Shown here: positions 31,067 to 50,004 of the stretch, piece by piece
Position numbering within the stretch: the first letter of the stretch is position 1
How the letters are laid out: the number at the start of each line of letters is the position of its first letter
Assembly (NCBI GenBank): GCA_021776515.1
Contig: JAJFFS010000011.1
Coordinates: 186,001 to 250,000 of the forward strand
Direction of reading: 5' to 3'
Source of the DNA: Robiginitomaculum sp.
Lineage (GTDB): Bacteria; Pseudomonadota; Alphaproteobacteria; Caulobacterales; Maricaulaceae
Length of the DNA stretch: 64,000 nucleotides
Position numbers and translations under genes: made by a program
The notes under the pieces: generated by a model
Told to the model about the DNA's origin: nothing
Database searches by the model: none
The model's input: only the letters and a program-made list of their open reading frames with translations

Positions 31067-32366
31067 ATTTACCCCCCGGCAAATTGTTGCTGAACTTGAT
31101 CGTCACATTGTAGCCCAAAGCAACGCAAAACGCGCCGTTGCTGTTGCCCTGCGCAATCGCTGGCGGCGGCGGCGTGTGGATGAGGGCCTCAAGGCAGAAA
31201 TCACACCTAAAAACATTTTAATGATTGGACCAACCGGCGTGGGCAAAACTGAAATTGCCCGCCGCCTGGCAAAGCTTGCTGGCGCTCCCTTTATTAAAAT
31301 AGAGGCCACAAAGTTTACCGAGGTTGGTTATGTTGGCCGTGATGTTGAACAGATCATACGCGACCTTATTGAAATGGCCTTGTTGATGGTGCGGGAAAAC
31401 AAACGCACAGAGGTAGAGGGTCGCGCAAAAAACGCCGCTGAAGAGCGCATTTTAGATGCTCTGGTAGGTGCTGGTGCCAGCCCTGCCACCAGAGAGTCTT
31501 TTCGGGCACGCCTGCGCGCGGGCGATCTGGACGAAAAAGAAGTTGACCTTGATCTGTCAGATAACGCCTCGCCGTTTCAGGCTTTCGACATTCCAGGAAT
31601 GCAAGGCGGCGGCATGGGAATGCTGGATTTGGGAGAAATGCTGGGCAAGGGTCTCGGCGGACGCACCAAATCAAGACGCCTGCGTGTCATTGATGCCCAC
31701 ACACCCCTGATTGAAGAAGAAAGCGACAGACTTTTGGATGAGGCTCAAATTGTATCAGAGGCAATTGCTTCTGTTGAAAACGATGGCATCGTCTTTTTGG
31801 ATGAAATTGATAAAATTACTGCGCGCTCAGAGCGTCAGGGTGGCGACGTCTCTCGTGAAGGTGTGCAGCGTGACCTTCTGCCACTTATTGAGGGCACCAC
31901 GGTGAGCACCAAACATGGCCCCGTGCGGACCGACCACATTCTTTTTATTGCCTCTGGCGCCTTTCATGTGGCCAGTCCGTCAGATATGTTGCCAGAGCTG
32001 CAAGGCCGTTTGCCCATCCGCGTTGAGCTGCGGGCCCTGACCCGCGATGATTTTCGGCGCATTTTAACAGAGCCTGAAGCATCGTTAATTCAGCAATACA
32101 TTGCGTTAATGGCAACAGAAGGTGTAACGCTGGACTTTAATGATGAAGCTATTGACGCCATTGCTGATATTTCCGCTCTGGTAAACGCCAGTATAGAAAA
32201 CATCGGCGCTCGTCGTTTGCAAACGGTTATGGAAAAACTGCTTGAGGAAATAAGCTTTACTGCCTCCGAGCAAGATGGTGAAACGGTTTTTATCAATAAA
32301 GACTACGTTTTGGAACGTCTTGAATCGCTTTCACGCAATAACGATCTTTCCAAATTTATTTTATAA
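31059..32366 (+). CDS. hslU: ATP-dependent HslUV protease, ATPase subunit
   Basis: '[33 protein letters not shown]', '[42 protein letters not shown]', 'FLDEIDKI'. Confidence 0.97.
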
Positions 32367-32894
32367 TTTTGCTGCGCGCCTTAAAAAAACATACCAGGCA
32401 CCCTTGCCGCCGTGGCGCGTGTGGGCCGGGGCCAAGCCTGAAACGATAGCGCGAAACTCACTGTCCCCCAGCCAGGCAGACAAGCTTGTTCGCAATACCC
32501 CTTCATCGCGTTCCCCGCGCCCGGTGATGACCAGCACACAGCGCAAATGTTCGCTATAATGCCCCTCCAGGCGTTGTAATAAATAGGCCTTTGCCTCGTC
32601 ATGCTTTTTCCCATGAAGATCAATGCGTGCCTGCGCTTCGACACGGCCCCGTCGAATATGCTTATGAGACGATCGGTCTTCTGGCGCGGTGCCGGGCGTT
32701 GTTTTTGACTGACGTTCTGGCCTTCTTACGGGCCTCTTTACTGTCTCTTTAAATGATATGGGGTGATGGTTTTTTGTTTTTTCTGGAAGCTCCGCCTGCG
32801 CATCGCCCTTTCTTGTTTTTAACGGGGAAACCGTATCTTTTACGCGCTCCCATAGCTCTTGTTCAGCGCCTTCATCTTTGGGCGGGCGCGTCAT
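32361..32894 (-). CDS. Smr-domain protein
   Basis: '[39 protein letters not shown]', C-terminal '[13 protein letters not shown]'. Confidence 0.87.
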
Positions 32895-34213
32895 GATTTT
32901 GGCTCACCGGCCCCCTCTGCCCCGGCCCGTGAGCGCGGGATTAAAGCCCACCAGCGTGCTGCGTGTTTGACAATGCCAGCACGACGTCCCGCTTGAAACC
33001 CAGAGCCTAAAAACAAATCACCTCGCATCATGCCGTTTATTGCGCCGCCCGTATCTTGTGCAATTGCTAAAAACTGTGTCGGCTCGCCTTTCCAGTCCTT
33101 ATCATCACGCGGTAAGCGCGTATCAACCCATATCGGTGAGCCCAGAGGATAAACATCGGGATCTACCGCCAAAGATGCGCCCGCCGTTAATGCTGCGCCT
33201 TGTGTGCCTATCGGTCCAAGCGCAGGATCATTCACGGGTTTTGCAGCAAAGAAAACATATCGTTTGTTACGATTCATCAAAGCCCTGGTTTTTTCTGGCC
33301 CGGACCTTTTCATCCATTTTTCTATAGCACCCTTTGAAGCCTTTCCCGGATCCAACTCCCCTTCTTTAATCAAAACGCGACCTATCGAGGTATAGGGGTG
33401 GCCATTGTGCCCGGCAAAGGCGGCACGGATGACCTGGCCGTTTTGATAATGAAGCCGCCCTGAGCCTTGTACCTGCAGGAAAAAAACTTCTGCAGCTGAG
33501 CCCCAGGCCAAAGCTGTGCCACCTCTTTCTTTTATTTCTGTTCGCGTCAGGTATGGCACCAGTATCCCGTCTTTTACCTGACCCATAAACTTGCGTCCGT
33601 TAACGCCGTTCGCATTAAATTTTTTAGGATCTACAGTTACCAGATCTGGCGGCCTGGAAAAAATGGGCTCGGTAAATCCGGGCGCTGGTTCTGAGCGAAC
33701 GTCCAGCTCTGGCTCATAATACGCAGTTAGCAAACCGCCCGTTTTCCCGGGTAGCATTAGTGCGCGTGGAACGAAATGATTTTCAAAAAACACACGCGAA
33801 GCATCATTTTCAAGAGCCTTCCCCTTTGCCTCTTCGCATGCCGCTTTCCACTGGCTTGCCGCTGTCCAGTCTTTGGAAAAAACCACGCATGAGCGTTGAA
33901 AAGCCATAAACGCGACCGCCTGGTTCCCTGACAACCAGCCTGGAAGGGCGGAAAAATCCGGGCGGGTGCCATCAGGTGATAACTCTTTGTCAGCGTCGCT
34001 CTTTACCGTCTCTTGTGAAACCAATTCCTTGTCTGTTTGGGCATCAGGCTTTTGGTCTGACGGGCGTTCCCGCTCGCCCTCCGGTGCCTCTTCTGGTTCT
34101 GGTAAAGCCGCTGCTTCTTTTTGTGGCACGTCGACCGGTAGAAGGGGGGCTTTATCCGCGCCCGTGGCGCAGCCGACAAGAACCAGACAAACAACCAAAA
34201 ATACGCGCCACAT
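32891..34213 (-). CDS. mltA: Membrane-bound lytic murein transglycosylase A (MltA) lipoprotein
   Basis: Lipobox 'LVGCAT'; 'GLLTAYYEPELD', 'YLTRTEIKERGGTALAWGSAAEVFFLQVQGSGRL', 3D-domain-like 'IAQDTGGAINGMMRGDLFLGSG'. Confidence 0.92.
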   Translation of the reverse strand: MWRVFLVVCLVLVGCATGADKAPLLPVDVPQKEAAALPEPEEAPEGERERPSDQKPDAQTDKELVSQETVKSDADKELSPDGTRPDFSALPGWLSGNQAVAFMAFQRSCVVFSKDWTAASQWKAACEEAKGKALENDASRVFFENHFVPRALMLPGKTGGLLTAYYEPELDVRSEPAPGFTEPIFSRPPDLVTVDPKKFNANGVNGRKFMGQVKDGILVPYLTRTEIKERGGTALAWGSAAEVFFLQVQGSGRLHYQNGQVIRAAFAGHNGHPYTSIGRVLIKEGELDPGKASKGAIEKWMKRSGPEKTRALMNRNKRYVFFAAKPVNDPALGPIGTQGAALTAGASLAVDPDVYPLGSPIWVDTRLPRDDKDWKGEPTQFLAIAQDTGGAINGMMRGDLFLGSGFQAGRRAGIVKHAARWWALIPRSRAGAEGAGEPKS

Positions 34214-34228
34214 CAGTATTTATCCTTG

Positions 34229-34864
34229 TTAAACAAGCGTTTCTACACTGTCTAGCTTCCAGTTTGGGTTGCGAGAGTTGACCTCGCGGACAAACGTCCA
34301 CTCTTCTGTTGTTGATGTGCTTTCTACGCGTACGTCTTCCGGCGCTTTACTATTAACCTCGCGTGTTGAAATTTCAGCTGAAAAAGACACAATTACGCGC
34401 GCCTCTTTTCCTGTTAACGAAGCTTCTTTTATCTCGGCTTTTTTAATGCGGATTATCTCAGTATCAAGCTCTTCCCCCCTGTCTTCACGTGCCTTTATGG
34501 CTTCAACATAGCGTGTAAAAACCGCTGGGCTCAAAAGCGCTTTGAGGGTTTTTTTCTCGCCCCGGGAGTACGCTTCCACCACCCGCTCATAGGCGGTTTT
34601 GGCCCCGGATAAAAATGTATGTGGTTCGAAGTTGTTATCAGCAGCATGTATGGCCTCAAGGCCTGCAGCGGCTGGTCCGGTAAACGCAGGGCGCAGCGGT
34701 GTGGGAGCGGCCTGTTTAATGGGCTTTTGCCCAGGGGCGCTAATCTGTGTTGGCGCAGGCGGCGGCGCACCAACATCTTTACCCAAAACGTTATAAAGCT
34801 TTATCAGCACAAAGCCGGCTATTGCGGCAAAAACAATGATTTGCATCATGGCCATCGTTATCAT
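34229..34864 (-). CDS. Tim44/TimA-domain protein
   Basis: N-terminal TM; 'FLSGAKTAYERVVEAYSRGEKKTLKALLSPAVFTRYVEAIKAREDRGE', 'TTEEWTFVREVNSRNPNWKLDSVETL'. Confidence 0.88.
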   Translation of the reverse strand: MITMAMMQIIVFAAIAGFVLIKLYNVLGKDVGAPPPAPTQISAPGQKPIKQAAPTPLRPAFTGPAAAGLEAIHAADNNFEPHTFLSGAKTAYERVVEAYSRGEKKTLKALLSPAVFTRYVEAIKAREDRGEELDTEIIRIKKAEIKEASLTGKEARVIVSFSAEISTREVNSKAPEDVRVESTSTTEEWTFVREVNSRNPNWKLDSVETLV

Positions 34865-34980
34865 CCTTATTCGTTCACGCGCAGTATAATAACTTTTATA
34901 CAAGGAAGTCAGCCCGAAGCTTGCTGCAAATCACACAGCGTGCTAGCAGCCCGCACACCTGATAATAATGAGTTTGAAAA

Positions 34981-35499
34981 ATGAGCGACGAAACACCAAC
35001 ACCCCCGGCACAAGAACCAGCAACGCAAGAACCGCAATTGCGCTTGCTTGCCCAATACTCCAAAGATGTTTCTTTTGAAAACCCCAATGCGCCCACAAGC
35101 CTGCAAAATGGGCCAACCCCCGCAATTGAGCTTGAAATTGGCGTCGGCGCACAAAACGCACAAGAAAACATTTACGAAGTGTCTTTGTCGATTTCGGTAA
35201 AGGCCACCCGAGAGGAAACCACTGTTTTTCTGCTGGAGTTGGTATATTGCGGCCTGTTTGCAATAGAGGGCGTCCCTGAAGAAAGCCTCGGGCCTATTTT
35301 GCATATTGAATGCACCCGCCTGCTTTTCCCTTATGCGCGAAGAATTGTTTCTGACCTTACGCAAGACGGTGGATTTCCTGCCTTGCCTTTGGAGCCCATT
35401 GATTTTGCTGCTGTTTATCGGGCTGGTCTCGAACAACAAGCTGCACAGCAGGCAGCCCAACAAACCAATGGCAGCGAAAACGGCAGCGGCAACGCCTAA
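34981..35499 (+). CDS. secB: Protein-export chaperone SecB
   Basis: 'QYSKDVSFENPNAP', 'VSLSISVKATREETTVFLLELVYCGLF', 'ECTRLLFPYARRIVSDLTQDGGFPALPLEPIDF'. Confidence 0.95.
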   Translation: MSDETPTPPAQEPATQEPQLRLLAQYSKDVSFENPNAPTSLQNGPTPAIELEIGVGAQNAQENIYEVSLSISVKATREETTVFLLELVYCGLFAIEGVPEESLGPILHIECTRLLFPYARRIVSDLTQDGGFPALPLEPIDFAAVYRAGLEQQAAQQAAQQTNGSENGSGNA

Positions 35500-35506
35500 G
35501 GCGCCT

Positions 35507-36202
35507 TTAAAGGTGTTTGTTCCAGACAGCATTTTTGCCGATTTGGTTCAAAAACTTGCGGTGCTCTGTGCGTTGCGCGTCGCTTAATGGTGCGGTGACA
35601 GCCTTAATTTCTCTTTTTATCTCTTGTGTGGTTGGCTCATTGCGTCTTTGTGCCTGCTTTTTTCGCGGGTTCAAATCCAGTTTGCGTTCGCGCCCACCAT
35701 TAAGCTCCAGATACACTTCGGCGAGAAGTTTGGCGTCCAGCAATGCGCCGTGCAGGGACCTTTCTGAAAGGCTTACTGAAAAACGCTTGCACAGGGCATC
35801 CAGTGAGTTATAGGCCCCTGGAAATTTTTTGCGGGCGATAAGAAGCGTGTCGATAAAACGTCTGTCGTCAAAGCGCTCGCGGTCTATTTTAACCAGTTCT
35901 GAGTTTAGAAAATCCCTGTCAAACCGGGCGTTGTGGGCGACCATCTTGCTGTCCTCGATAAACGCCATAAAGTCTTCCACTATTTCTGAAAACAGCGGCT
36001 TATCGGCCAGAAACTCTGTTGTCAGCCCTGTAATGCGCACCACCTCTTCGGGAACATCCCTCTGTGGATTTACATAGCGGCGAAAGGTTTTACCCGTAGG
36101 TAAAAGGTCGATTATTTCCACACACCCTATTTCGGTTATGCGGTCACCATCAAACGGCTTCAGGCCTGTTGTTTCTGTATCAAACACTATCTCGCGGGGC
36201 AT
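35507..36202 (-). CDS. dnaQ: DNA polymerase III epsilon subunit
   Basis: 'REIVFDTETTGLKPFDGDRITEIGCVEI', 'VAHNARFDRDFLN', 'HGALLDAKLLAEVYLEL'. Confidence 0.95.
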   Translation of the reverse strand: MPREIVFDTETTGLKPFDGDRITEIGCVEIIDLLPTGKTFRRYVNPQRDVPEEVVRITGLTTEFLADKPLFSEIVEDFMAFIEDSKMVAHNARFDRDFLNSELVKIDRERFDDRRFIDTLLIARKKFPGAYNSLDALCKRFSVSLSERSLHGALLDAKLLAEVYLELNGGRERKLDLNPRKKQAQRRNEPTTQEIKREIKAVTAPLSDAQRTEHRKFLNQIGKNAVWNKHL

Positions 36203-36233
36203 TTTTACCTTTCAAAACAGGCCAAGCATCTGT

Positions 36234-36827
36234 CTAGGCCTCACCTGTTAGTTGTTGAAGTATGCTTTGCACTTGCTGCGCCGCATCTTCAAGCCCTTTT
36301 GATGTGTTGATAACAAAATCTGCGCGTTTACGCTTTTCTTTATCGGGTGTCTGGTGGGATAGTATGTGTGCCAAGCGCTTTTCGGTCATTCCCGGGCGAG
36401 ATAAAACGCGTTGTTTTTGTGTTTTTTGTGGTGCGCTTACAACAATTACCTTGTCTACGCTTTGCTCTCCGCCTGTTTCAAAAAGCAGGGGGATGTCAAA
36501 CAGAACAACATTGTGACCTGCCTTTACAGCTCTTTGCAACCACACCCGCCGCTCTTCTGCTACCGCAGGGTGAACAATTTTTCCCAGGTCCTTTAGGGCT
36601 GTTTTTTGCCCCTGTATTAATTTCATCAGGGCTTGCCGGTTTATCTTTCCGCTTGCTTTTACGCCTGGAAAACGCGCCTCTATGGCGTTTATGACCGCCT
36701 CGTTATCTTGGTAAAGCTGATGCACTGTTGCGTCTGCATCAAAAACAGGAATGCCCTCTTGTGCAAAAAGCCTGGCGGTCGTGCTTTTTCCCATCCCTAT
36801 TGAGCCTGTCAGCCCCAGAACAATCAT
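36234..36827 (-). CDS. coaE: Dephospho-CoA kinase
   Basis: 'VLGLTGSIGMGKSTTARLFAQEGIPVFDADATVHQLY', 'VLFDIPLLFETG'. Confidence 0.95.
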   Translation of the reverse strand: MIVLGLTGSIGMGKSTTARLFAQEGIPVFDADATVHQLYQDNEAVINAIEARFPGVKASGKINRQALMKLIQGQKTALKDLGKIVHPAVAEERRVWLQRAVKAGHNVVLFDIPLLFETGGEQSVDKVIVVSAPQKTQKQRVLSRPGMTEKRLAHILSHQTPDKEKRKRADFVINTSKGLEDAAQQVQSILQQLTGEA

Positions 36828-37681
36828 GCGTTTTCCCCCAAAGCTTTCAACAAAACCCTTTTCACGGCGTTGTCTCTGGGGGGTGGTCTTCCAAAAAAGG
36901 CCTCAAATGAGGGCCGCGCCTGAGCGATAAGCATATCAAGGCCGCCCAGCACCAAAAGGCCCTTACGCTCTGCCTCCAAAAGCAGGTTTGTTTTCAAAGG
37001 TGTGTAAATCAGGTCATAAACCAGTGCATCAGTCTCTAGCCTGCGTAACGAAATATCAAGCGGGTCCGCGCCGCGCATCCCGGCGGCACTCGCGTTTACC
37101 AAAAGCGCTACATTCAGCAACGCATCTTCGCGTTTTGACCAGGAAACGGCCTTTACCTGATGGCCAAATTGATCAGCCAGCGTTTTCGCCCGTTCGTCCG
37201 TTCGGTTTACTAAAATTATAGCGCCTGGGTTTAGTTTTAAAGCGCCAATTAATGCCGCGCGCGCTGCACCACCTGCCCCGATTATGACAATTTTTTTGTT
37301 TTTCCATTCTGCTGGCCTGCGGCTTTCCAATAATGGCGAACAAAAGCCCGCTATATCTGTGTTGTCCGCATATAATTGCCCCCCTTTACGAACCAGCAGG
37401 TTTGCTGCACCGGCCAATTGTGCCTCTTCGCTTGCTATGTCAGCCCGTTTCAAGGCGGCACCCTTATGCGGAAGTGTAATGTTCATTCCAACAAAGTCTG
37501 AATTTGCAAATAAGTCTTTGGTGCTTTGAAAGAACATATCTGATTTGACGTGTTTGCTCTCATAGACTGCGTTTATAGCCAGGGTTTTTATCCAGGTATT
37601 ATGTAATAATGGCGATAAAGAATGCGCAATCGGATCGCCAACCACACAGGCCTTTTTTAATTGCTTTTTGTTTTTAATCAT
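36824..37681 (-). CDS. aroE: Shikimate dehydrogenase
   Basis: 'VVGDPIAHSLSPLLHNTWI', 'GMNITLPHKGAAL', 'NTDIAGFCSPL', 'IIGAGGAARAALIGAL', 'GLDMLIAQARPSFEAFFG'. Confidence 0.94.
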   Translation of the reverse strand: MIKNKKQLKKACVVGDPIAHSLSPLLHNTWIKTLAINAVYESKHVKSDMFFQSTKDLFANSDFVGMNITLPHKGAALKRADIASEEAQLAGAANLLVRKGGQLYADNTDIAGFCSPLLESRRPAEWKNKKIVIIGAGGAARAALIGALKLNPGAIILVNRTDERAKTLADQFGHQVKAVSWSKREDALLNVALLVNASAAGMRGADPLDISLRRLETDALVYDLIYTPLKTNLLLEAERKGLLVLGGLDMLIAQARPSFEAFFGRPPPRDNAVKRVLLKALGENA

Positions 37682-38295
37682 GCGGGAATCGCATCTAGAT
37701 CTCGCAGCGCCTTTAATAATGGCAGTAGCGGAAGGCCCAGAATTGAAAAATAGTCACCCTTCATGCTTTCAAACAGTGTGATGCCAAGCCCTTCGACCTC
37801 ATAACAACCGACGCTCGCTAAAATGCCCTCCCCTGCATCGCGCAAATAACTATCTATAAAACAGCTGCTTAGCGCACGCATGGTCATTTGCGAGCGCGCG
37901 TGATGTTCCCACACAACATGTTTTTCTTTCATCAACACGGTTGTGCTTACTAAATAGTGTGTTTGCCCTGAAAGGGTGTCTAGGCGCTCTTTCGCTTTTT
38001 TTTGTGTACTGACCTTGTCATAGAGCTGGCCTTTAAATTCCAGTATTTGATCAGAACCTATGACAAGGTCTGACTCTCTGGCCGGGATACTTCTCGCCTT
38101 TTCTCTGGCTAGGTAGGCGCTCATTTCTTCTGCGTTGGACACGTCTGCTGTCAATTTTAACGCACCTTCATCAACATCAGGTGGTTGAGCTGAAAATTTC
38201 AAGCCTGACTTTTGTAAAATGGTTTTACGGATTAGGCTCCCAGAGCCTAAAATTAGCTTTGGGTCCTTTTGGTTTATGGTTTGAATGTTTACCAC
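37678..38295 (-). CDS. maf: Maf-family nucleotide pyrophosphatase
   Basis: 'LILGSGSLIRKTIL', 'AREKARSIPARESDLVIGSDQILEF', 'GDYFSILGLPLLPLL'. GTG 38295 likely start. Confidence 0.88.
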   Translation of the reverse strand: MVNIQTINQKDPKLILGSGSLIRKTILQKSGLKFSAQPPDVDEGALKLTADVSNAEEMSAYLAREKARSIPARESDLVIGSDQILEFKGQLYDKVSTQKKAKERLDTLSGQTHYLVSTTVLMKEKHVVWEHHARSQMTMRALSSCFIDSYLRDAGEGILASVGCYEVEGLGITLFESMKGDYFSILGLPLLPLLKALRDLDAIPA

Positions 38296-38296
38296 T

Positions 38297-39148
38297 TCAA
38301 AGACCCAGCTCCTCGTTTTTGCGAGCAACCAGCAACGACATAACCTTGGCTGACGTTTCTTCTATGGAGCGCCTGGTAACGTCAATAACCGGCCATTGGT
38401 GCCTGGCGAATAGTCTTTTGGCAAAGATAATTTCTTCACGCACAGCCGCTTCGTTTATATATTCGCTTGGTCGGTGTTCATTCAGGCTTAACAGGCGGTT
38501 GCGGCGTATTTGTACCAAACGGCGCGGGCTTATCGTCAACCCGACCACGAGCGGCCCATCTTGTACGTCTAACAACGTTTCTGGCAGCTCTGCCTTGCCA
38601 ACAATTGGAATGTTTGCAGCCTTGATGCCACGATTAGCAAGATACACACATGTTGGCGTTTTTGATGTGCGGCTAACCCCCAGCAAAATTACTTCGGCCT
38701 GACTTATCCTTTCCGGTGAAAGCCCATCATCGTGCGCCATAGCAAAATTCAAAGCATCTATGCGTTGATGGTATCCCTCATCTTGTGTGTGCTGTGCGCC
38801 AGTTTCATGACTAACAGGCGCTCCCAGATATTGACTAAGTGCGTGTAAAGCAGGCCCTAGAACGTCTATGCAAGGAAAGGCGTTACTTTTGCAAAATTCG
38901 ACCAGGCGCTGTCGCTGATCCTCGTTGACCATTGTGTACAACACCAGGCCAGGCGCAGCTTTAATTTCTTCTTGAACGAGATCCAGCTGTTTTTCTGAGC
39001 GGGTAAGAACGTGCGTGTGTTCTATCGGGATAAGCGATTTAAATTGTGCGCTTGCGGCACGCGTTATTCCAGACAGGGTTTCACCCGTTGCATCGGAAAC
39101 CAGATGTAAATGAACATAGTAGCCTTGTGTTATCTCACGTTCGATCAA
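38297..39148 (-). CDS. ppsR: Pyruvate, phosphate dikinase regulatory protein (PPDK kinase/phosphorylase)
   Basis: 'YYVHLHLVSDATGETL', 'AEVILLGVSRTSKTPTCVYLANRGIKAANIPIV', C-terminal 'WPVIDVTRRSIEETSAKVM'. Confidence 0.92.
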   Translation of the reverse strand: MIEREITQGYYVHLHLVSDATGETLSGITRAASAQFKSLIPIEHTHVLTRSEKQLDLVQEEIKAAPGLVLYTMVNEDQRQRLVEFCKSNAFPCIDVLGPALHALSQYLGAPVSHETGAQHTQDEGYHQRIDALNFAMAHDDGLSPERISQAEVILLGVSRTSKTPTCVYLANRGIKAANIPIVGKAELPETLLDVQDGPLVVGLTISPRRLVQIRRNRLLSLNEHRPSEYINEAAVREEIIFAKRLFARHQWPVIDVTRRSIEETSAKVMSLLVARKNEELGL

Positions 39149-39493
39149 CGCTCTTTCCTTCGGTTAAACGTTAATAAAGTGTTAACAAGCGCTAACAGAA
39201 CTCCGGCGTTTATGTCCTGGTCTTGGTCTGCCCGGATAATACCGCATATAGCCTGAAGTTTTACATTTTTTCCACTGTTGGCATCTTTTTTGTGTGTTTT
39301 ATGGATAAGCTTTCTATTTTCACCTATCGCTTTGATAATATTTACTATTTTATTTTTTTCTTTATTCCAACCTCGTGCCTACCTGTTCATATCATGTGTA
39401 AAAAACCAAAATAAGTTGTGAAATTCGGTTTTGTCATTGCTATTCACAGCGTAATAAAAACCACATCTTAAAATAATATATTATTGGAAAAGT
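39149..39493. other. Putative chromosomal replication origin (oriC)
   Basis: AT-rich gap between ppsR and hemE with divergent flanking genes; CtrA consensus at 39171-39186; DnaA-box-like 9-mers at 39268-39276 (TTTTCCACT), 39300-39308 (TTATCCATA, minus strand) and 39440-39448 (CTATTCACA); AT-rich tract ~39331-39366; parAB and parS nearby. Confidence 0.78.
39171..39186 (+). promoter_or_regulatory. CtrA-type binding site
   Basis: TTAA-taaagtg-TTAAC, exact match to TTAA-N7-TTAAC. Confidence 0.7.
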
Positions 39494-40537
39494 ATGGCCA
39501 TGGGTATTCCGGTAAAACCTCTTTTACAAACGCTTTCTGGGCAAACAAACAGTAAGCCTCCGGTTTGGGTTATGCGACAAGCCGGACGATATTTACCTGA
39601 ATATAGACAGCTGCGCACAGAGGCTCCTTCTTTTATAGATTTTTGTCTCAACCCTAAAATGGCGAGCGAGGCTACACTACAACCACTTCGTCGGTTTGAT
39701 TTGGATGCGGCAATAATTTTTGCCGATATTTTACTCATTCCTTTCGCCATGGAGCGCGGTGTACACTTTGTTTCTGGAGAAGGGCCTAAAATGCAGCCTC
39801 TGGAACGTGGCCAACCCTTGTCGCAACTGGAAAAGGCATGGTCTCTTGCCAAGCTGGAAGCCGTTGGAGAGGCGCTAGGGATTGTTCGTCATGCACTACC
39901 TAAAAATGTTACGCTAATTGGCTTTGCCGGTGCGCCCTGGACGGTTGCTACCTATATGATTGAAGGTGGTGGATCCAAGGACAAATGGGCATCACGATTA
40001 TGGGCCTGGCAGGAACCGGAAGAATTTGACCAGCTGATGGATATTCTGACCGAAGCCAGCATTGATTATCTGTGCATGCAGGCAAAAGCGGGCGCAGAGG
40101 TTCTCAAATTATTTGAATCCTGGGCAGAGGGACTGCCGGAACCCTTTTTTGAGCGCTTTATTATTCGCCCGGCGAAAAACATTGTCGCGGGCCTAAGAGA
40201 GCGCGGCGTAAATTTACCAATTATAGGGTTTCCGCGCGGCTGTGGTAATTTGGCGGTCCGTTATGCCAGCGAAACAGGAATTACGGCACTGGCGCTGGAT
40301 CAGGCACAGGATGGGCGCTGGTTTAGTCAAAACCTGCCAAAAGACATGGTTATCCAGGGGAACCTAGATCCTGCGGTGTTGCGTGTCGGCGGCGCCGCAC
40401 TGCAAAGCGAGGTTGCCCGCGTAAAGCAAAGTTTTGCGGGCAGGGCACATATTTTCAATCTGGGGCACGGGATTACGCCGGATACGCCGATAGAGAATAT
40501 GGAAAAACTGGTTAAGCTGGTGAAAGCAACAACGTGA
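39494..40537 (+). CDS. hemE: Uroporphyrinogen decarboxylase
   Basis: 'PPVWVMRQAGRYLPEYRQLR', 'DAAIIFADILLIPFAMERGVHF', 'QGNLDPAVL', 'HIFNLGHGITPDTPIENMEKLV'. Confidence 0.96.
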   Translation: MAMGIPVKPLLQTLSGQTNSKPPVWVMRQAGRYLPEYRQLRTEAPSFIDFCLNPKMASEATLQPLRRFDLDAAIIFADILLIPFAMERGVHFVSGEGPKMQPLERGQPLSQLEKAWSLAKLEAVGEALGIVRHALPKNVTLIGFAGAPWTVATYMIEGGGSKDKWASRLWAWQEPEEFDQLMDILTEASIDYLCMQAKAGAEVLKLFESWAEGLPEPFFERFIIRPAKNIVAGLRERGVNLPIIGFPRGCGNLAVRYASETGITALALDQAQDGRWFSQNLPKDMVIQGNLDPAVLRVGGAALQSEVARVKQSFAGRAHIFNLGHGITPDTPIENMEKLVKLVKATT

Positions 40538-41505
40538 GTGAAAAAACTGCCATTGTGCTTTTTAATATGGGTGGTCCTGACAGTATTCAAAGTGTTCGCC
40601 CCTTTTTACGCAATCTGTTTGCCGACAAAGCAATCATCAATCTACCAAATCCATTTCGATATATACTGGCAGAGGTCATTAGCCGTAGTCGTGAAAGGGA
40701 AGCCCAAAAAAATTATGCACTGATGGGAGGTGCATCACCAATTCTTGCCGAGAGTAAAAAACAGGCGAAAGCCGTGCAAAACTACCTGGAAAAATTTCTG
40801 CCGGACGAAGAGATAAAATGTTTTATTGCCATGCGATACTGGGCACCGGAAATTTTGGAAACACAAGAAAAAATAAAAACATGGGGCGCATCAAAAATTG
40901 TTCTTTTGCCATTATATCCACAATATTCCACCACAACGACGGGAAGCTTTTTAACAAAATGGGGGAGCGTAAGCGTGGGTCTGCCCAAGGCGACCGCGAT
41001 TTCTGAGTATCCAGACAATGATTTATTTATTCAGGCCCATGTGAAAAAAATCATCAAAGCTTTTGAAAAACACGGATCACCAAAAAACACGCGCATTATT
41101 ATGTCAGCACACGGGTTGCCAGAAAAAATCATCCTTGCCGGCGACCCCTATCAACAACAAATTGAAAAAACCTGCGCAGCCATTGCCAAAAACCTTCCTG
41201 AAACGCTAGACGACATGCACATTGCTTATCAAAGCAAGGTTGGTCGATTAAAATGGACCGGGCCATCAACTTTGGACGTGCTGAAGGTGGCTGGAAAAGA
41301 GCAAAAACCTGTGTTGCTGGTGCCTATAGCCTTTGTTTCCGAACATATAGAGACTTTGGTAGAGCTGGATATAGATTATAAAAAACAGGCCAAGACATTT
41401 GGTATAAAAACCTATATGCGTGTGCCTGCATTGGGGATAGAGCCTGATTACATTGCCTGTCTTGGCAAGCTGGCTATAGGGGCCATGAGAGACGAGCAAA
41501 AATGA
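40534..41505 (+). CDS. hemH: Ferrochelatase
   Basis: 'VLFNMGGPDSIQSVRPFLRNLFAD', 'LLPLYPQYSTTTTGSF', 'SAHGLPEKIILAGDPY', 'PIAFVSEHIETLVELDIDY'. Confidence 0.96.
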   Translation: MSEKTAIVLFNMGGPDSIQSVRPFLRNLFADKAIINLPNPFRYILAEVISRSREREAQKNYALMGGASPILAESKKQAKAVQNYLEKFLPDEEIKCFIAMRYWAPEILETQEKIKTWGASKIVLLPLYPQYSTTTTGSFLTKWGSVSVGLPKATAISEYPDNDLFIQAHVKKIIKAFEKHGSPKNTRIIMSAHGLPEKIILAGDPYQQQIEKTCAAIAKNLPETLDDMHIAYQSKVGRLKWTGPSTLDVLKVAGKEQKPVLLVPIAFVSEHIETLVELDIDYKKQAKTFGIKTYMRVPALGIEPDYIACLGKLAIGAMRDEQK

Positions 41506-41963
41506 ATTTTATCGCAGAAAATTATGACATTTGGCGTGCGGGGCACATTCTGACGGTTATTGCCTGGATGGCTGGCCTTCTCTATTTGCCACGTCTGTTT
41601 ATTTATCACTTTAGCGCAAAGCCGGATGGGGAACTGGAAACCTGCCTGATAGCTCAGGAGCACAGGTTATTACGAATGATCATGAATCCGGCTTTTGTCC
41701 TGGTATGGGGTTTTGGCATATTGTTGATTATTGCCAATGCAGGGCGGGCAGGCGGATGGAGTGTTTTTCTATCCTGGCCGTGGGTTTTTAAATTTTCGCT
41801 GATAACCGTGATGACGGTCTTGCATCATTACTTTGCCTTGATGCGAAAACAATTTGCCAAGGGTGAACGACCATTAAGCGAAAAAAAGTGGCGCATCATA
41901 AACGAGCTACCCGCCGTATTGGCCATATTTATAGTGGTTATTGCTGTTGTTTGGTTACGCTAA
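41502..41963 (+). CDS. hemJ: Protoporphyrinogen oxidase HemJ
   Basis: Multi-TM 153 aa; 'RAGHILTVIAWMAGLLYLPRLFIYH', 'FKFSLITVMTVLHHYFALMRKQFA', 'RIINELPAVLAIFIVVIAVV'. Confidence 0.92.
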   Translation: MNFIAENYDIWRAGHILTVIAWMAGLLYLPRLFIYHFSAKPDGELETCLIAQEHRLLRMIMNPAFVLVWGFGILLIIANAGRAGGWSVFLSWPWVFKFSLITVMTVLHHYFALMRKQFAKGERPLSEKKWRIINELPAVLAIFIVVIAVVWLR

Positions 41964-42145
41964 CGGCGTTGCCGGAAAACAAACACGCTTGACGGCTGTT
42001 GCGCAGCGTGCTTTTAGAAAACCTCTCTTGAGGCGGTAACCGATACAGGTTTGCGGCCTATTACCCAAAACATATTTTTTTCGTTTGTAACGCACGATCC
42101 GCGTGCCTTTGGCAAACATAAAGCCCCATAGGAGTCTCAGCCAAA

Positions 42146-43495
42146 ATGTCTGTGGAAGATCAAAATGAAACCGAAACGGCCGAGGATACTACGGTTGAAG
42201 AGATCATTGTAAAAGCTCGCCCGGAAGGCATGTCTCGCATGACCTTGCAGGAGCTTAAAGAAAAAGATCCTAAAGACCTTTTGAAACTGGCTGAATCTCT
42301 GGACATTGAAAATGCATCGACCATGCGCAAGCAGGATATGATGTTTGCTATTCTGAAAGACCTTGCCGAAAGAGATGTAGAAATATATGGCGGCGGCGTT
42401 CTGGAAACATTGCAGGACGGGTTTGGGTTTTTGCGATCACCAGAAGCGAACTACCTGGCCGGACCTGACGATATTTATGTAAGTCCGGTACAAATACGCC
42501 AACTGGGCCTTAGAACGGGCGATACGGTAGAGGGCGAAATACACAGCCCGCGTGATGGCGAGCGTTATTTTGCGCTGGTCAAAACAACCAAAATCAATTT
42601 TGAAGACCCTGAAAAGGTACGACATAAGGTTGTTTTTGATAATTTGACACCGCTTTACCCTGACGAGCAGATGAAAATGGAAACCCAGGACCCGACCATA
42701 AAAGATCGTTCAGGGCGGGTGATTGATATTGTTGCACCTTTAGGAAAGGGGCAGCGCGCCCTGATTGTGGCGCCCCCACGAACGGGTAAAACGGTGCTAT
42801 TGCAAAACATTGCGCACGCCATAGAAGCGAACCACCCGGAATGCTTTTTGATCGTCTTGCTGATCGATGAAAGGCCTGAAGAGGTTACCGATATGCAGCG
42901 CTCGGTTAAAGGAGAAGTGGTTTCTTCTACCTTTGATGAGCCAGCAACGCGACACGTGCAAGTTGCTGAAATGGTTATAGAAAAAGCTAAGCGTCTGGTC
43001 GAACATGGCCGTGATGTGGTTATTTTACTGGATTCCATAACACGGCTGGGCCGGGCTTATAATACCGTCGTGCCCTCTTCGGGTAAGGTCCTGACAGGCG
43101 GCGTCGATGCAAACGCCTTGCAGCGCCCAAAGAGATTTTTTGGCGCAGCGCGCAACATAGAAAACGGCGGCTCACTAAGCATTATCTCGACGGCACTGGT
43201 TGAAACGGGATCGCGCATGGACGAAGTAATTTTTGAAGAATTTAAAGGCACGGGCAACTCAGAAATTGTACTGGATCGCAAAGTTTCTGATAAGCGCGTA
43301 TTCCCGGCAATAGATGTCACCAAATCGGGCACACGCAAGGAAGAGCTTTTGGTGCCCAAGGATGTTCTGCAAAAAATGTTTGTACTCCGCCGCATTCTCA
43401 ACCCGATGGGCACGACAGACGCCATAGAGTTTTTACTCGAAAAACTACGTCAAACGAAAGACAATGATGAATTTTTTGAAAGCATGAACACGTAA
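42146..43495 (+). CDS. rho: Transcription termination factor Rho
   Basis: '[27 protein letters not shown]', '[26 protein letters not shown]', '[29 protein letters not shown]', '[15 protein letters not shown]'. Confidence 0.98.
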
Positions 43496-43686
43496 GTAAA
43501 AAGGGATCTGGTCATACTGCGGTAGTGCTGAGATGGCACTGGCGGAGTGTGGCAGAGAAGAAAAATAAGGCGGTGCCACCACCTTTTTAAGAAAAAACAG
43601 CGAGGGGGTTGTGGCAAGACCAGCGGCTAGTTTGCAATAATGAGACCCACCGAAATGAGAAAACCACGACCCCGTACTGGCACAGG

Positions 43687-43950
43687 ATGGCTGGTTGGTT
43701 CAAGTTTGGATTAAAAGAATAAGAACTTGTTTTTTTGCATGCTTGGCAGCGTAAATTCACCCTTTCCAAAAGCACGCACAACAAGCAAACCTTTATTAAA
43801 AACGACCGCTTTCAACGGCTGCTCAACACCAGGTCTAAAATAAACACCTGGATTTAGCGGATTGTAAAAGCCAGGATAATTTAGCGCCGCCACGGTTTGT
43901 ATAAAATCTGTATGGGGTGTTATTGCGAAGGCTGGTTATACTTTTAACAA
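43687..43950 (-). pseudogene. Possible remnant of a protein-coding gene
   Basis: Minus-strand reading (approximate limits) 'PAFAITPHTDFIQTVAALNYPGFYNPLNPGVYFRPGVEQPLKAVVFNKGLLVVRAFGKGEFTLPSMQKNKFLFF*' has protein-like composition but no proper start, and begins just after an in-frame stop. Confidence 0.25.
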
Positions 43951-44131
43951 GCAGGTCATACCCGCATTAAGATGACAAAAGGCAACGCACCGTCGTTTTC
44001 TGACAAAGCAGGATAATCTGCGAATCTGTCATTAAAATAGCGAGTATTTATGTTATGAGACATGAAGCGGCCCGCCCCCCCGTTTGGACAAGGCGTGGTG
44101 TCGGATAGAAACAAGCACGAAGGGAAACACC

Positions 44132-44380
44132 ATGAAGGTTAAAATAGATATTTCCTGCACACCGCAAGAAGCACGTACTTTTTTCGGTTTGCCTGATGTT
44201 CAGGGCTTAAATGAAGCTCTGACAGAAGAAATGACAAAGCGAATGCAGGAAAACATGGCAGAGCTTTCGCCTGACGCATTGATGGGGCAGTGGATGTCTC
44301 TTGGTGGTAAAATGGGCGAGCAGTTTATGGGCCTTATGTCTGGTGCAGTGAGGGGCGCAACACCAAAAAACCGTGAGTAA
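44132..44380 (+). CDS. Small conserved protein (DUF6489-like)
   Basis: 'MKVKIDISCTPQEARTFFGLPDVQGLNEALTEEMTKRMQENM' pattern; internal ATG 44132 preferred. Confidence 0.7.
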   Translation: MKVKIDISCTPQEARTFFGLPDVQGLNEALTEEMTKRMQENMAELSPDALMGQWMSLGGKMGEQFMGLMSGAVRGATPKNRE

Positions 44381-45731
44381 TTGTAGACCAACTATCTTTG
44401 CATTAACAACGCCGCCAGGCAGATCCGGGCTGGCCGTTATGCGCGTAAGTGGTGGAAAAGCCACAGAAATATTACACACCCTGTGCCGCAGAAAAGACTT
44501 TTTAGCTCGCAAAGCCAAGCTCGCACCCGTTTATTTTATAAAAGCCGCCGAGCCGTTTGACCACCCATTGGTCTTGTGGTTTTCAGGCCCGGCCAGTTAT
44601 ACGGGTGAAGATGTATTTGAGCTGCACCTACATGGTGGCCCGGCTGTTATAGAGGCCGCATCATCTGCGTTATTGGCGTTGGGCGCAATACCTGCTGGCG
44701 CAGGAGAGTTTACCAGACGCGCATTTGAAAACGGCAAGCTGGATTTGGTGCAGGCCGAGGCTGTTGCTGACCTTATTGATGCACAAACACGTGGCCAACG
44801 GGAGCAGGCACAACGTCAATTGCGCGGCGACCTGGGCGCAATGTATGAGGGCTGGCGTGACGATCTAGGTATTATACGAGCTCAAATAGAAGCGTGCATA
44901 GACTTTCCCGAAGAGGAGGACGTGTTAGCCGATGCAATGAAGGCGGTGGCACCGAAAGTAGAGGCGCTGGTTTCGTTGTTGAGCGCCCATATGGAAGACA
45001 GCAAACGCGGCATGCGCATTCGTGATGGCGTAAGCATTGCGCTTATCGGCGCGGTAAATGCCGGAAAATCAACCTTGCTCAACGCCCTTGCCGGTGAAGA
45101 TGCGGCCATTGTTTCAGACGAACCCGGCACAACCAGAGACGTTGTGCGCGTCAGCATGAACCTGGGTGGTTTTTTGGTTGATCTGGCAGATACGGCTGGC
45201 ACAAGAGACGGTGCGCAAGGCATTGAAAAAGAAGGTATTCGGCGCGCAAAACAGACGGCAGAAAATGCGGATGCTCGCATATTGGTTATAGATTCTAACC
45301 CGCCAATGACCGTGTCTGAAAAGACAAAAACCCAGATAAGAGATGGAGATTTTGTTGTCCTGAACAAACAGGATCAAAGAGGCGCAGGGTCACAGGCGGT
45401 GGACCTTGGCATAAACACGCCAGTGCAAACCCACTATGTTTCGGCTAAAACGGGTGAGGGGGTGAGCGAACTGCTCGCTGCTTTGGAAGTACACATTATA
45501 GAAATGCTGGGCAACAGGGAGGCGCCTGGGCTAACCAGAGCGCGCCACCAACAGGCTATAGAGGAAACACGGTCTGCTTTGGTTCAGGCAACGCAACAAC
45601 TGGGCAGGCACCCGGAGTTGGCGGGCGAACGCTTAAGAGAAGCGAGCGCGGCGCTGGGACAGATAACGGGCGAGACAGGAGCAGAAGAAATTCTGGATAA
45701 AATTTTTAGCGGATTTTGTATTGGAAAATAA
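44373..45731 (+). CDS. mnmE: tRNA uridine-5-carboxymethylaminomethyl modification GTPase
   Basis: 'TIFALTTPPGRSGLAVMRVSG', 'PGEFTRRAFENGKLDLVQAEAVADLI'-like region, 'GAVNAGKSTLLNALAGEDAAIVSDEPGTTRDVV', C-terminal 'IFSGFCIGK'. Confidence 0.97.
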   Translation: MSNCRPTIFALTTPPGRSGLAVMRVSGGKATEILHTLCRRKDFLARKAKLAPVYFIKAAEPFDHPLVLWFSGPASYTGEDVFELHLHGGPAVIEAASSALLALGAIPAGAGEFTRRAFENGKLDLVQAEAVADLIDAQTRGQREQAQRQLRGDLGAMYEGWRDDLGIIRAQIEACIDFPEEEDVLADAMKAVAPKVEALVSLLSAHMEDSKRGMRIRDGVSIALIGAVNAGKSTLLNALAGEDAAIVSDEPGTTRDVVRVSMNLGGFLVDLADTAGTRDGAQGIEKEGIRRAKQTAENADARILVIDSNPPMTVSEKTKTQIRDGDFVVLNKQDQRGAGSQAVDLGINTPVQTHYVSAKTGEGVSELLAALEVHIIEMLGNREAPGLTRARHQQAIEETRSALVQATQQLGRHPELAGERLREASAALGQITGETGAEEILDKIFSGFCIGK

Positions 45732-45736
45732 GCGAT

Positions 45737-45752
45737 TGTTTCACGTGAAACA
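45737..45752. promoter_or_regulatory. parS centromere site 1
   Basis: Perfect TGTTTCACGTGAAACA, part of a 20-bp palindrome ATTGTTTCACGTGAAACAAT (45735-45754), in the mnmE-mnmG gap. Confidence 0.97.
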
Positions 45753-45835
45753 ATACGGTTTTAAGAGAGAGACAAAGAGTCGACATTTGGCCTTGATGGG
45801 GTTATTGAGCGCGCCCTGGAGCGCATGGCGGAAAA

Positions 45836-47710
45836 ATGCTTAAAACCAACAAAACCTGGGACGTCGTGGTAATTGGCGGTGGACATGCGGGCTGCGAAGC
45901 CGCTGCCGCTGCTGCTCGTCTTGGTGCATCCGTTTTACTGATTAGTCCCAGCGCAAACGATTTTGGACAAATGTCATGTAATCCAGCTATAGGCGGTATT
46001 GGCAAAGGGCATTTGGTGCGCGAAGTAGATGCGCTTGATGGCCTTATGGGCAAGGCGGCCGACGCCTCGGGTATTCAGTTTCGCCTGCTTAATCGCAGCA
46101 AGGGGCCGGCGGTGCAAGGGCCGCGCACCCAGTCAGACCGAAAGCTATATAAGGACGCAATTGCAGACTTTATTACAGAGCAGGACGGGCTGCATATCTG
46201 TGAAGATCGCGTAGAAGATATAGATATTCAAGACCAAGGGGTACGTGCGGTTATTTGTGCCAGCGGCGCACGATATGATTGTGCTTCTGTGGTATTAACC
46301 ACAGGTACGTTTTTAAATGGCGTTATACACAGGGGCGGGAAGCAGGAGGCTGCTGGCCGGTTTGGAGAAGCGCCTTCTCTTGGCCTGGCCCATACGCTGG
46401 CAAAGCTGAATTTGCCTATGGGGAGGTTAAAAACAGGCACGCCCGCACGGCTTATCAAAGAGAGTATAAACTGGAGCGCGCTGGTAACGCAGGCGGCAGA
46501 TGACAACCCTGTGCCCCTGTCTTTTTTGACAGGCAACATCACGGTTCCACAAATTGCCTGCGCGATAAGTGAAACGAACCAGAAGACGCACAAAATTATC
46601 GCTGAGAATTTGGCGCTTTCTGCCATGGGAAGCGGCAATATTAGCGGACCCGGTCCGCGATATTGCCCGTCTATAGAAGATAAAATCACACGGTTTGCCG
46701 ACAAAAATAGTCACCAGGTTTTTTTAGAGCCAGAGGGCCTTGATAACCCCCATGTCTATCCGAACGGAATATCCACATCACTACAAGAAAATGTGCAAGA
46801 CGCGTTTCTGAAAACCATGGTGGGCTTGGAAAACGTGCGCGTACATCGCTACGGCTATGCCATAGAATATGACTATGTTGACCCCAGGGCGTTACGCGCC
46901 AGCCTTCAGGTCAAAAACATATCCGGGTTATATCTGGCGGGGCAAATTAATGGCACAACCGGATATGAGGAGGCGGCAGCACAAGGCCTTCTTGCCGGGT
47001 TGAATGCGGCGCTGTTTGCGGGTGGCTCAGCGCCCTTTGTTCCAGACCGGAGCGAGGCGTATTTGGGTGTAATGGTTGATGATTTGACCAGCCACGGTGT
47101 TAGTGAGCCCTATCGCATGTACACCTCCCGCGCAGAATACCGGCTGAGCTTGCGTGCAGACAATGCCGATCAGCGTCTGACGCCCATTGGTATTGCGCTA
47201 GGGTGTGTCGGGGTGGAGCGGAAAAGTGTTTTTGATAAAAAATGCGCAGCCTTGAACAAGGCGCGGGCGCTGGCAAAAAAGAGCAACAAAACCCCGCAAG
47301 AACTGCTTCGTTCGGGCATAAAGGTCAATCAGGACGGGGTTCGTCGCAGTGCGCTGGATATTTTGGCATATCCAGATAAGGGTTGGGCAGATGTGGTGCG
47401 GGTTTGGCCAGAACTGGGCACCACCGACAAAAAAATAGCAACACAACTGACTACAGACGCACTGTACGCAGGCTATCTTGAGCGCCAGCAGCGCGATGTT
47501 AAGCGCTTTCGTCGAGAAGAGCACCGCCGTTTACCGGAGGGTCTTGATTATAATGAGATAACGGGGTTATCCAACGAGGCGCGGGAAAAGCTTATCAAGG
47601 CGCAGCCTGAAACAATGGGGCAGGCGGGGCGGCTGGAAGGTGTATCACCAGGCGCGCTAGCATTGCTTTCGCACTATGTGAGGCGCACAAAGCGTCAAAA
47701 AACAGCATGA
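45836..47710 (+). CDS. mnmG: tRNA uridine-5-carboxymethylaminomethyl modification enzyme MnmG (GidA)
   Basis: '[26 protein letters not shown]', '[27 protein letters not shown]', '[12 protein letters not shown]', '[23 protein letters not shown]', '[18 protein letters not shown]'. Confidence 0.98.
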
Positions 47711-48336
47711 GCGCGCAAGAAGACCGCCAGACATTTGCCAAAACACTCAATGTTTCACGTGAAACATTAGCACGGTTTGATCTTTGGTATGATTTATTGC
47801 AAAAATGGTCGAAAAAAATCAACCTTGTTTCACCAGGCACACTGCAAGACTTTTGGTTGCGACATGCGCTGGATAGTGCGCAAATAGCCGCAATGGCCCC
47901 TAAAGGAACAAAAACCTGGATAGACTTGGGCTCAGGCGCCGGGTTTCCGGGCCTTGCTATTGCTCTGATGTGTATGGAAGACGTGCCATTACACGTTGTC
48001 ATGGTTGAATCCAACGCCAAAAAAGCGGCATTTTTGCGCACCTGTATACAGGAAACAGGCACAGGAGCTGAGGTGGTTTGTGAGCGCACAGAATTGATGC
48101 CGCCAAAGCCATACGACGTTGTTTCCGCCCGGGCCTTGGCACCTCTACCTAAATTACTGGAATTGTCGGCCCCGTTTGTGGGACCAAAAACTGTGCGCCT
48201 GTTTCCCAAGGGGGCAGACGTGCAAAAAGAAATAGATGAAGCGCAACGAGGCTGGACTCTGTGCTATCAATCTATACCAAGTCTGACAGACAAGTGTGCG
48301 TCAGTGTTAGAAATATGGGAAGCTAACCGTGTCTGA
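47707..48336 (+). CDS. rsmG: 16S rRNA (guanine527-N7)-methyltransferase
   Basis: '[46 protein letters not shown]', '[17 protein letters not shown]'. Confidence 0.96.
47751..47766. promoter_or_regulatory. parS centromere site 2 (inside rsmG)
   Basis: Perfect TGTTTCACGTGAAACA, part of AATGTTTCACGTGAAACATT (47749-47768), encoding the RsmG 'NVSRETL' segment. Confidence 0.97.
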
Positions 48337-49132
48337 ACCATCTGCAAACACACGGATTATTGCAATCGCAAACCAAAAGGGCGGGGTTGGCAAGACGACG
48401 ACGACGATAAACCTGGCAACGGCGCTTTGTGCCATTGGGCAAAAGACGCTTATTCTGGATATAGATCCGCAAGGTAACGCATCTACGGGTCTGGGTATTG
48501 ACCATGCCATGCGTCACACAACGACCTATGATGTGCTGGTGCGCCAAACACCCATAGAAAAAGCCATACTTCACACCGCCGTTCCCGGGTTACATATAGC
48601 GCCTGCCGAAGCCGATCTGGCCGGGGCAGAGCTTGAGCTTGCCAATGCGGCCCGGCGGTCACACCGGTTGAAAGACGCGCTTCGAGACCTTAGGAAAAGC
48701 GGTGAATATCACTACGTGTTGATTGATTGTCCTCCCTCTTTGAACGTTGTGACGGTCAATGCTTTAACGGCAGCAGATGCCTTGTTGGTGCCGCTACAAT
48801 GCGAGTTTTTTGCGCTGGAGGGGCTTAGCCAGCTATTACGCACAGTAGACCTGGTTCGGGGCAACCTTAACCCGGGTCTGGAAATACAAGGATTGGTGCT
48901 AACCATGTATGATCCACGCAACAACTTGTCAAAACAGGTTTCAGAAGATGTGCGCGCGCACTTTGGTGACAAGGTTTATAAAACGATGATCCCGCGTAAT
49001 GTGCGTGTTTCAGAAGCACCGTCTTATGGTAAACCAGCGCTGATTTATGATCATAAATGTGCCGGCAGCAAAGCTTATATGCGCCTGGCAAGCGAGGTAA
49101 TTCGCCGTGAAAACAAAGTGAGGGCGCTATGA
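48329..49132 (+). CDS. parA: Chromosome-partitioning ATPase ParA
   Basis: Deviant Walker A 'ANQKGGVGKTTTTINLATAL', 'ILDIDPQGNASTGLG', 'DCPPSLNVVTVNALTAADALLVPLQCEFFALEGLSQLL'. Confidence 0.97.
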   Translation: MSEPSANTRIIAIANQKGGVGKTTTTINLATALCAIGQKTLILDIDPQGNASTGLGIDHAMRHTTTYDVLVRQTPIEKAILHTAVPGLHIAPAEADLAGAELELANAARRSHRLKDALRDLRKSGEYHYVLIDCPPSLNVVTVNALTAADALLVPLQCEFFALEGLSQLLRTVDLVRGNLNPGLEIQGLVLTMYDPRNNLSKQVSEDVRAHFGDKVYKTMIPRNVRVSEAPSYGKPALIYDHKCAGSKAYMRLASEVIRRENKVRAL

Positions 49133-50004
49133 GCGAAAAACCAAAAGGACAGCGACTAGGGCGCGGGTTATCGGCCCTTTTGGGGGAGACAGAGCCGTCT
49201 GCACTTTCAACGCAAAACGTAGAAGGTGGGGCCACCGTTCCCATAGAAACAGTTAGCCGCAATCCGGAGCAGCCCCGGAGAAACTTCGACGAAGAAGAGC
49301 TGGAAAGCCTGACGCGCTCAATAAAAGAAAAGGGTGTTTTACAACCCATTATTGTTCGGCCCATACCGGGTGGTGATGGTTATCAAATTGTTGCGGGCGA
49401 GCGTCGCTGGCGGGCGGCGCAACGTGCCGGGATGCACGAGATCCCTGTAATTGCACGCGATTTATCAGATCGTGAAGTTTTGGAAATAGCGCTTGTGGAA
49501 AACATACAGCGCACAGACCTGGACCCCATAGAAGAGGCAAGAGGGTTTCTGGTTTTATCTGAGCAGTTCAACCATACACAAGAAGATATTGCCGGGGTGA
49601 TCGGCAAAAGCCGGGCTGCCATTGCCAATGCCTTGCGATTACTGAACTTACCACGATCAGTGCAGAAACAAATTAGCGACGGCGCGCTCAGCGCGGGTCA
49701 CGGGCGGGCCATGATCAATGCGCCAGACCCGGAAGGCATGGCGATATACGTTATAAACAAGGGTCTGAATGTTCGCCAAACGGAAGACCTGGCCAGACGG
49801 GCCGCGCCTGAAACCAAAGGGGGCAGAGCAAAGGTCGCGCCAGAAAAAGACCCCGACATACGTGCTCTTGAAGAAGACCTGACGCGACAATTGGGCTTGG
49901 GGGTCACAATAAACGCCCATGTCAATGGTTCGGGCCAATTACAGATAAATTATAAAACCCTGGAGCAGCTGGATGATTTGTGCCGCCGTCTTACACAGGA
50001 TTAG
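49129..50004 (+). CDS. parB: Chromosome-partitioning protein ParB
   Basis: 'RLGRGLSALLGE', 'NPEQPRRNFDEEELESLTRSIKEKGVLQPIIVRP', 'YQIVAGERRWRAAQRAGMHEIPVI', 'ALVENIQRTDLDPIEEA'. Confidence 0.97.
   Translation: MSEKPKGQRLGRGLSALLGETEPSALSTQNVEGGATVPIETVSRNPEQPRRNFDEEELESLTRSIKEKGVLQPIIVRPIPGGDGYQIVAGERRWRAAQRAGMHEIPVIARDLSDREVLEIALVENIQRTDLDPIEEARGFLVLSEQFNHTQEDIAGVIGKSRAAIANALRLLNLPRSVQKQISDGALSAGHGRAMINAPDPEGMAIYVINKGLNVRQTEDLARRAAPETKGGRAKVAPEKDPDIRALEEDLTRQLGLGVTINAHVNGSGQLQINYKTLEQLDDLCRRLTQD

Follow-up and report, generated by a model that had tools for sequence, protein, structure and literature searches.

A predicted chromosomal replication origin of the Caulobacter Cori type between ppsR and hemE in a Robiginitomaculum-like genome

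Results and discussion

Location and setting of the predicted origin

The intergenic gap separating ppsR and hemE is very likely the chromosomal replication origin (oriC) of this Robiginitomaculum-like bacterium, a predicted homologue of Caulobacter Cori. It lies in the window, i.e. the whole 64-kb stretch of DNA analysed (C3:186001-250000), which belongs to a 2.57 Mb draft genome of 21 contigs estimated to be 99.85% complete. Among named relatives, the closest is a Robiginitomaculum sp. MAG, whose hemE is 83% identical; Maricaulaceae and Oceanicaulis come next. An initial annotation had proposed oriC at this gap, and this assignment is now supported by a GC-skew minimum, parS sites, a conserved CtrA site, hemE/ppsR synteny and DnaA-box enrichment in orthologous gaps, the last four being independent lines of support. 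Cori-type oriC is a well-known kind, and the Robiginitomaculum-like example is an ordinary one. The gap and its boundary genes are as follows.

38297..39148, minus strand: ppsR, left boundary gene (DUF299/COG1806, Kinase-PPPase; PF03618, 1.3e-86; NF003742)
39149..39493, no strand: AT-rich gap between the divergent genes ppsR and hemE, predicted to be oriC (skew minimum at 39689; orthologous gap in relatives)
39494..40537, plus strand: hemE, right boundary gene (URO-D; PF01208, 7.1e-106)

The AT-rich gap of about 345 bp and the divergent gene orientation originally described are both borne out. The gap measures 345 bp at 33.9% GC, and the 2-kb windows around it have 45-55% GC. The open reading frames from 32361 to 39148 (mltA-like, dnaQ, coaE, aroE, maf, ppsR and others) are all on the minus strand and those from 39494 to 50004 (hemE, hemH, hemJ-like UPF0093, rho, mnmE, gidA, rsmG, parA and parB) all on the plus strand, so both flanks are transcribed away from the gap. 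This ppsR-gap-hemE order is kept across relatives, including Caulobacter and Phenylobacterium. Of the features that characterise the Cori family, three are found here, namely an intergenic position between hemE and COG1806, at least one TTAA-N7-TTAA site, and an AT content above the genome average with an unstable element, as are those of oriC in general, a cumulative GC-skew minimum with parS and parAB nearby.

GC skew and the partition locus

Cumulative skew was computed over the complete 257-kb contig C3, joined from pieces. The exact GC-skew minimum falls at window position 39689, 0.2 kb from the gap, and the purine-skew minimum at 39775, with a mean GC skew of -0.024 to the left of the minimum and +0.043 to the right. 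The check named in the initial annotation, by which a far-off skew switch would count against an origin here, therefore came out in favour of the gap on this contig. Eight other contigs were sampled in 20-kb segments, and the shorter contigs of the genome were read at their start. C9 and C18 have positive skew, as does C8 in 10 of 11 samples, C7, C4 and C17 are negative, and C19 is near zero (-0.005) at its start and positive afterwards. Among the sampled contigs, a clear switch from minus to plus is seen on C3 alone. Along C13 (126,620 bp) the skew passes from +0.08 to -0.03, and on this single indication the terminus probably lies there; a genome-wide search for a dif core like that of E. 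coli, allowing three mismatches, gave no match.

In the closed relatives G026 and G015 the skew likewise changes sign between samples flanking hemE (-55/+122 kb and -81/+90 kb, respectively). A third closed relative, G024, has no clear switch at hemE (G024:C1 ~2298688), its skew being weakly negative for several hundred kb past the gene and its right replichore almost without skew. Its parS sites are where they would be expected, 8 and 10 kb away from hemE. This speaks for a weak or rearranged skew rather than for a relocated origin, but we count G024 as an unexplained exception.

The partition locus lies to the right of the gap.

45737..45752, no strand: parS site 1, TGTTTCACGTGAAACA, a perfect palindrome
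47751..47766, no strand: parS site 2, TGTTTCACGTGAAACA
48329..49132, plus strand: parA (ParA/MinD-family matches)
49129..50004, plus strand: parB (TIGR00180, 8.3e-57)

These two parS sites, 6.2 and 8.3 kb right of the gap, are the only ones in the genome even when one mismatch is allowed. In C. crescentus parS lies within 8 kb of Cori (PMC4468827).

A conserved CtrA site at the ppsR edge

The best motif of the gap, absent from the initial annotation, is a perfect full site for CtrA.

39164..39178, no strand: overlapping CtrA-like site with one mismatch, TTAAACGTTAATAAA, of weak significance alone
39171..39185, no strand: perfect CtrA full site TTAA-N7-TTAA, TTAATAAAGTGTTAA, inside the conserved block CGTTAATAAAGTGTTAACAAG

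No segment of the gap is better conserved in the alignment of genus members than the block CGTTAATAAAGTGTTAACAAG, and the full site is at the same place in all six genus gaps examined. The predicted start of ppsR is 22 bp away from this site, and no other exact full site occurs on C3 within 25 kb of the skew minimum. We compared 68 non-redundant ppsR-hemE gaps drawn from the genomes of relatives, with expectations taken from shuffles. TTAA-N7-TTAA occurs 62 times in 45 of the 68 gaps against 1.5 expected (about 40-fold), and control spacings of 5, 6, 8 and 9 yield 3, 2, 0 and 0 sites, near or below chance. The offset of the full site within the gap varies by genus while the boundary genes stay constant; across the relatives (L017-L126) it is seen near the ppsR edge, at about 260-320 bp, or at two or three places in Caulobacter.

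The genome encodes the regulators CtrA, GcrA and DnaA (the last on contig C8) and three IHF/HU-family proteins, the CtrA orthologue (L216) being 231 aa long with CtrA 4qpj as its best PDB match (3e-60). There are 18 copies of TTAA-N7-TTAA genome-wide, one in the gap and another upstream of dnaA, against 65 of the reversed control AATT-N7-AATT, a marked deficit that could reflect selection against stray CtrA sites or dinucleotide bias. The copy near dnaA (G000:C8:272322-272336; L001 ~2540-2554) precedes the start of the dnaA ORF by about 130 bp, and from this predicted site CtrA may control dnaA too.

Candidate DnaA, IHF and unwinding elements

Beyond the CtrA site the gap contains the following candidate elements.

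39268..39276, plus strand: weak DnaA-box-like 9-mer TTTTCCACT, without exact conservation in the genus alignment
39300..39308, minus strand: DnaA-box-like 9-mer TTATCCATA, aligned with a perfect TTATCCACA (minus strand) in L019
39325..39337, minus strand: TATCAAAGCGATA, possible IHF site, the one match in the gap to the loose consensus WATCAN5WTR and near chance level (about 0.3 matches expected on a rough estimate)
39331..39370, no strand: AT-rich tract with the lowest stability of any 40-mer in the 64-kb window, candidate unwinding region
39395..39403, minus strand: DnaA box TTTTACACA, the sole exact TTWTNCACA in the gap
39440..39448, plus strand: DnaA-box-like CTATTCACA, followed by GCG-TAA-TAA-AAA, a possible DnaA-trio
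39453..39492, no strand: hemE-side AT-rich element, candidate duplex unwinding element (nearest-neighbour scan)

The three DnaA-like 9-mers quoted originally, at 39268, 39300 and 39440, are each one mismatch from TTWTNCACA, as reported, but that list overlooked the exact match at 39395. Variants of the 39300 box occur at similar offsets in the relatives L020 and L021, the nearest relative L018 carries TTTTGCACA at the position of the 39395 box as read from the alignment, and the counterparts of the 39440 box are TTGTTCACAGCGTAAAAA in L018 and CTGTTCACAGCCTAAAAA in L019. No perfect TTATCCACA is present in the 345-bp gap. The description of the boxes as weak holds: the gap contains five near-DnaA 9-mers against 1.4 in dinucleotide shuffles, 1.3% of which reach five, and taken alone these boxes are weak evidence (about 1% significance). 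The densest 345-bp stretch of such 9-mers in the 257-kb contig overlaps the gap. The signal in the 68 relatives' gaps comprises 10 copies of TTATCCACA against 0.12 in shuffles and 34 of TTWTNCACA against 2.3, with reversed DnaA-box controls at chance, and the most over-represented 8-mers of these gaps are largely DnaA-box-like (TATCCACA, ATCCACAG, TTTTCCCC, TATCCCCA and TTCACAGG). As the DnaA sites of Cori, G-boxes and W-boxes, are themselves weak (PMC4468827), weak boxes are to be expected here and present no problem.

The element at 39440 recalls the BUS module, in which a DnaA box with DnaA-trios following within 16 bp serves unwinding (PMC8287927). The arrangement CTATTCACA-GCG-TAA-TAA-AAA has a similar counterpart in the two nearest relatives only, and its reading as a DnaA-trio is tentative; we rejected the trio as a family-wide motif, the box-GC-TAA form being confined to the nearest relatives. 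Also rejected as an origin were five perfect TTATCCACA words at C17:97543-98175. They belong to a coding repeat at C17:97228-98266 (L259, G000:C17:95001-101000), 6.7 tandem copies of 156 bp inside a 1116-aa ORF, so that the words recur at intervals of exactly 156 bp; origin finders could be misled by this coding coincidence.

Duplex stability was assessed by a nearest-neighbour scan of 40-mers over the whole window. The AT-rich tract noted originally at about 39331-39366 is confirmed, and its 40-mer is the least stable one in the window; only 11 of some 64,000 40-mers are less stable than the hemE-side element at 39453. Because an AT-rich block aligns at the position of 39453-39492 across Caulobacterales gaps, this element is no weaker a candidate for unwinding than the tract at 39331.

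Alternative locations

The gap might be merely the divergent promoter region of ppsR and hemE, its AT-richness, CtrA site and gene divergence reflecting transcription, with oriC elsewhere, e.g. beside dnaA. CtrA sites act at promoters too, the site at 39171 is close to the predicted ppsR start, and a CtrA-type site is also present upstream of dnaA (C8:272322). We nevertheless regard this explanation as very improbable, as the skew minimum of the whole contig, like both parS sites, falls at the ppsR-hemE locus, and promoter function alone fails to explain the DnaA-box enrichment in orthologous gaps. The skew also leads us to reject an origin beside dnaA: on C8, a predominantly positive contig, the sign of the skew does not change in a sustained way over the 20-kb samples around dnaA (250-310 kb).

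Origins close to gidA or parAB exist in other bacteria, and GC skew resolves position to kilobases only, so that an origin within about 10 kb but outside the gap, for instance in the mnmE-gidA or parAB intergenic regions, has also to be weighed. This we consider slightly less probable still, since the exact skew minimum is so near the gap, the gap holds the only exact CtrA full site within 25 kb of that minimum on C3, and mapping in Caulobacter placed the homologous origin between ppsR and hemE too (PMC1914354).

Predicted initiation and its control

With the origin placed in the ppsR-hemE gap, its sequence suggests that DnaA, CtrA and IHF would bind there and that replication would start there. 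DnaA-ATP would assemble on the few low-affinity boxes at 39268, 39300, 39395 and 39440 and melt one AT-rich element, either 39331-39370 or the conserved hemE-side 39453-39492, from which two replisomes would depart in opposite directions as bidirectional forks. ParB bound to parS, 6-8 kb away, would move the new origin to the other pole. Phosphorylated CtrA at 39171-39185 would repress initiation in the non-replicating cell type, as CtrA~P does at Cori in swarmer cells (PMC4468827).

About 82 bp separate the end of the CtrA site from the first DnaA-like box, and at this distance the steric exclusion proposed for Cori may not apply. That CtrA acts in this genus from its single distal site at the ppsR edge by something other than simple DnaA exclusion seems to us doubtful, though a good deal less remote than either alternative location; such control would have to use other routes, e.g. 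ppsR-side transcription, DNA bending or long-range assembly. The same site could also serve the ppsR promoter. The comparative support for this origin placement in a Robiginitomaculum-like genome is strong, and the result is useful mainly as annotation. It also means that CtrA-linked origins extend across marine Caulobacterales relatives, with a CtrA site that shifts within the gap between genera, a natural comparative series for testing CtrA origin silencing.

Comparison with known origins

Cori has been mapped in Caulobacter between hemE and COG1806/DUF299 (PMC1914354). The gap described here shares with C. crescentus Cori these boundaries (COG1806/DUF299 being ppsR), TTAA-N7-TTAA, low-affinity DnaA boxes, an AT-rich element and parS within about 8 kb (PMC1914354, PMC4468827). 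It is shorter, at 345 bp against about 500-575 bp in Caulobacter and Phenylobacterium relatives (aligned genes), and has one full CtrA site where C. crescentus Cori has five binding sites. The CtrA site is some 80 bp from the nearest DnaA-like box, whereas in C. crescentus Cori the two are adjacent, and the G-box TGATCCACA, which several Caulobacter-type gaps carry about 4 bp away from a CtrA site, is absent from the gap here, unlike in C. crescentus Cori.

Among stalked budding relatives, Hyphomonas neptunium has a CtrA ChIP-seq peak at its chromosomal origin, and by this published description it resembles the present case in having CtrA beside the origin (PMC7200025). The origins of Rickettsia prowazekii and Wolbachia, in silico predictions, are flanked by hemE and carry DnaA, CtrA and IHF sites (PMC1914354). 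Both differ from the gap described here in their higher AT content and in their numbers of sites; the R. prowazekii origin has the same hemE/COG1806 boundaries, whereas in Wolbachia the second boundary gene is a different one (PMC1914354).
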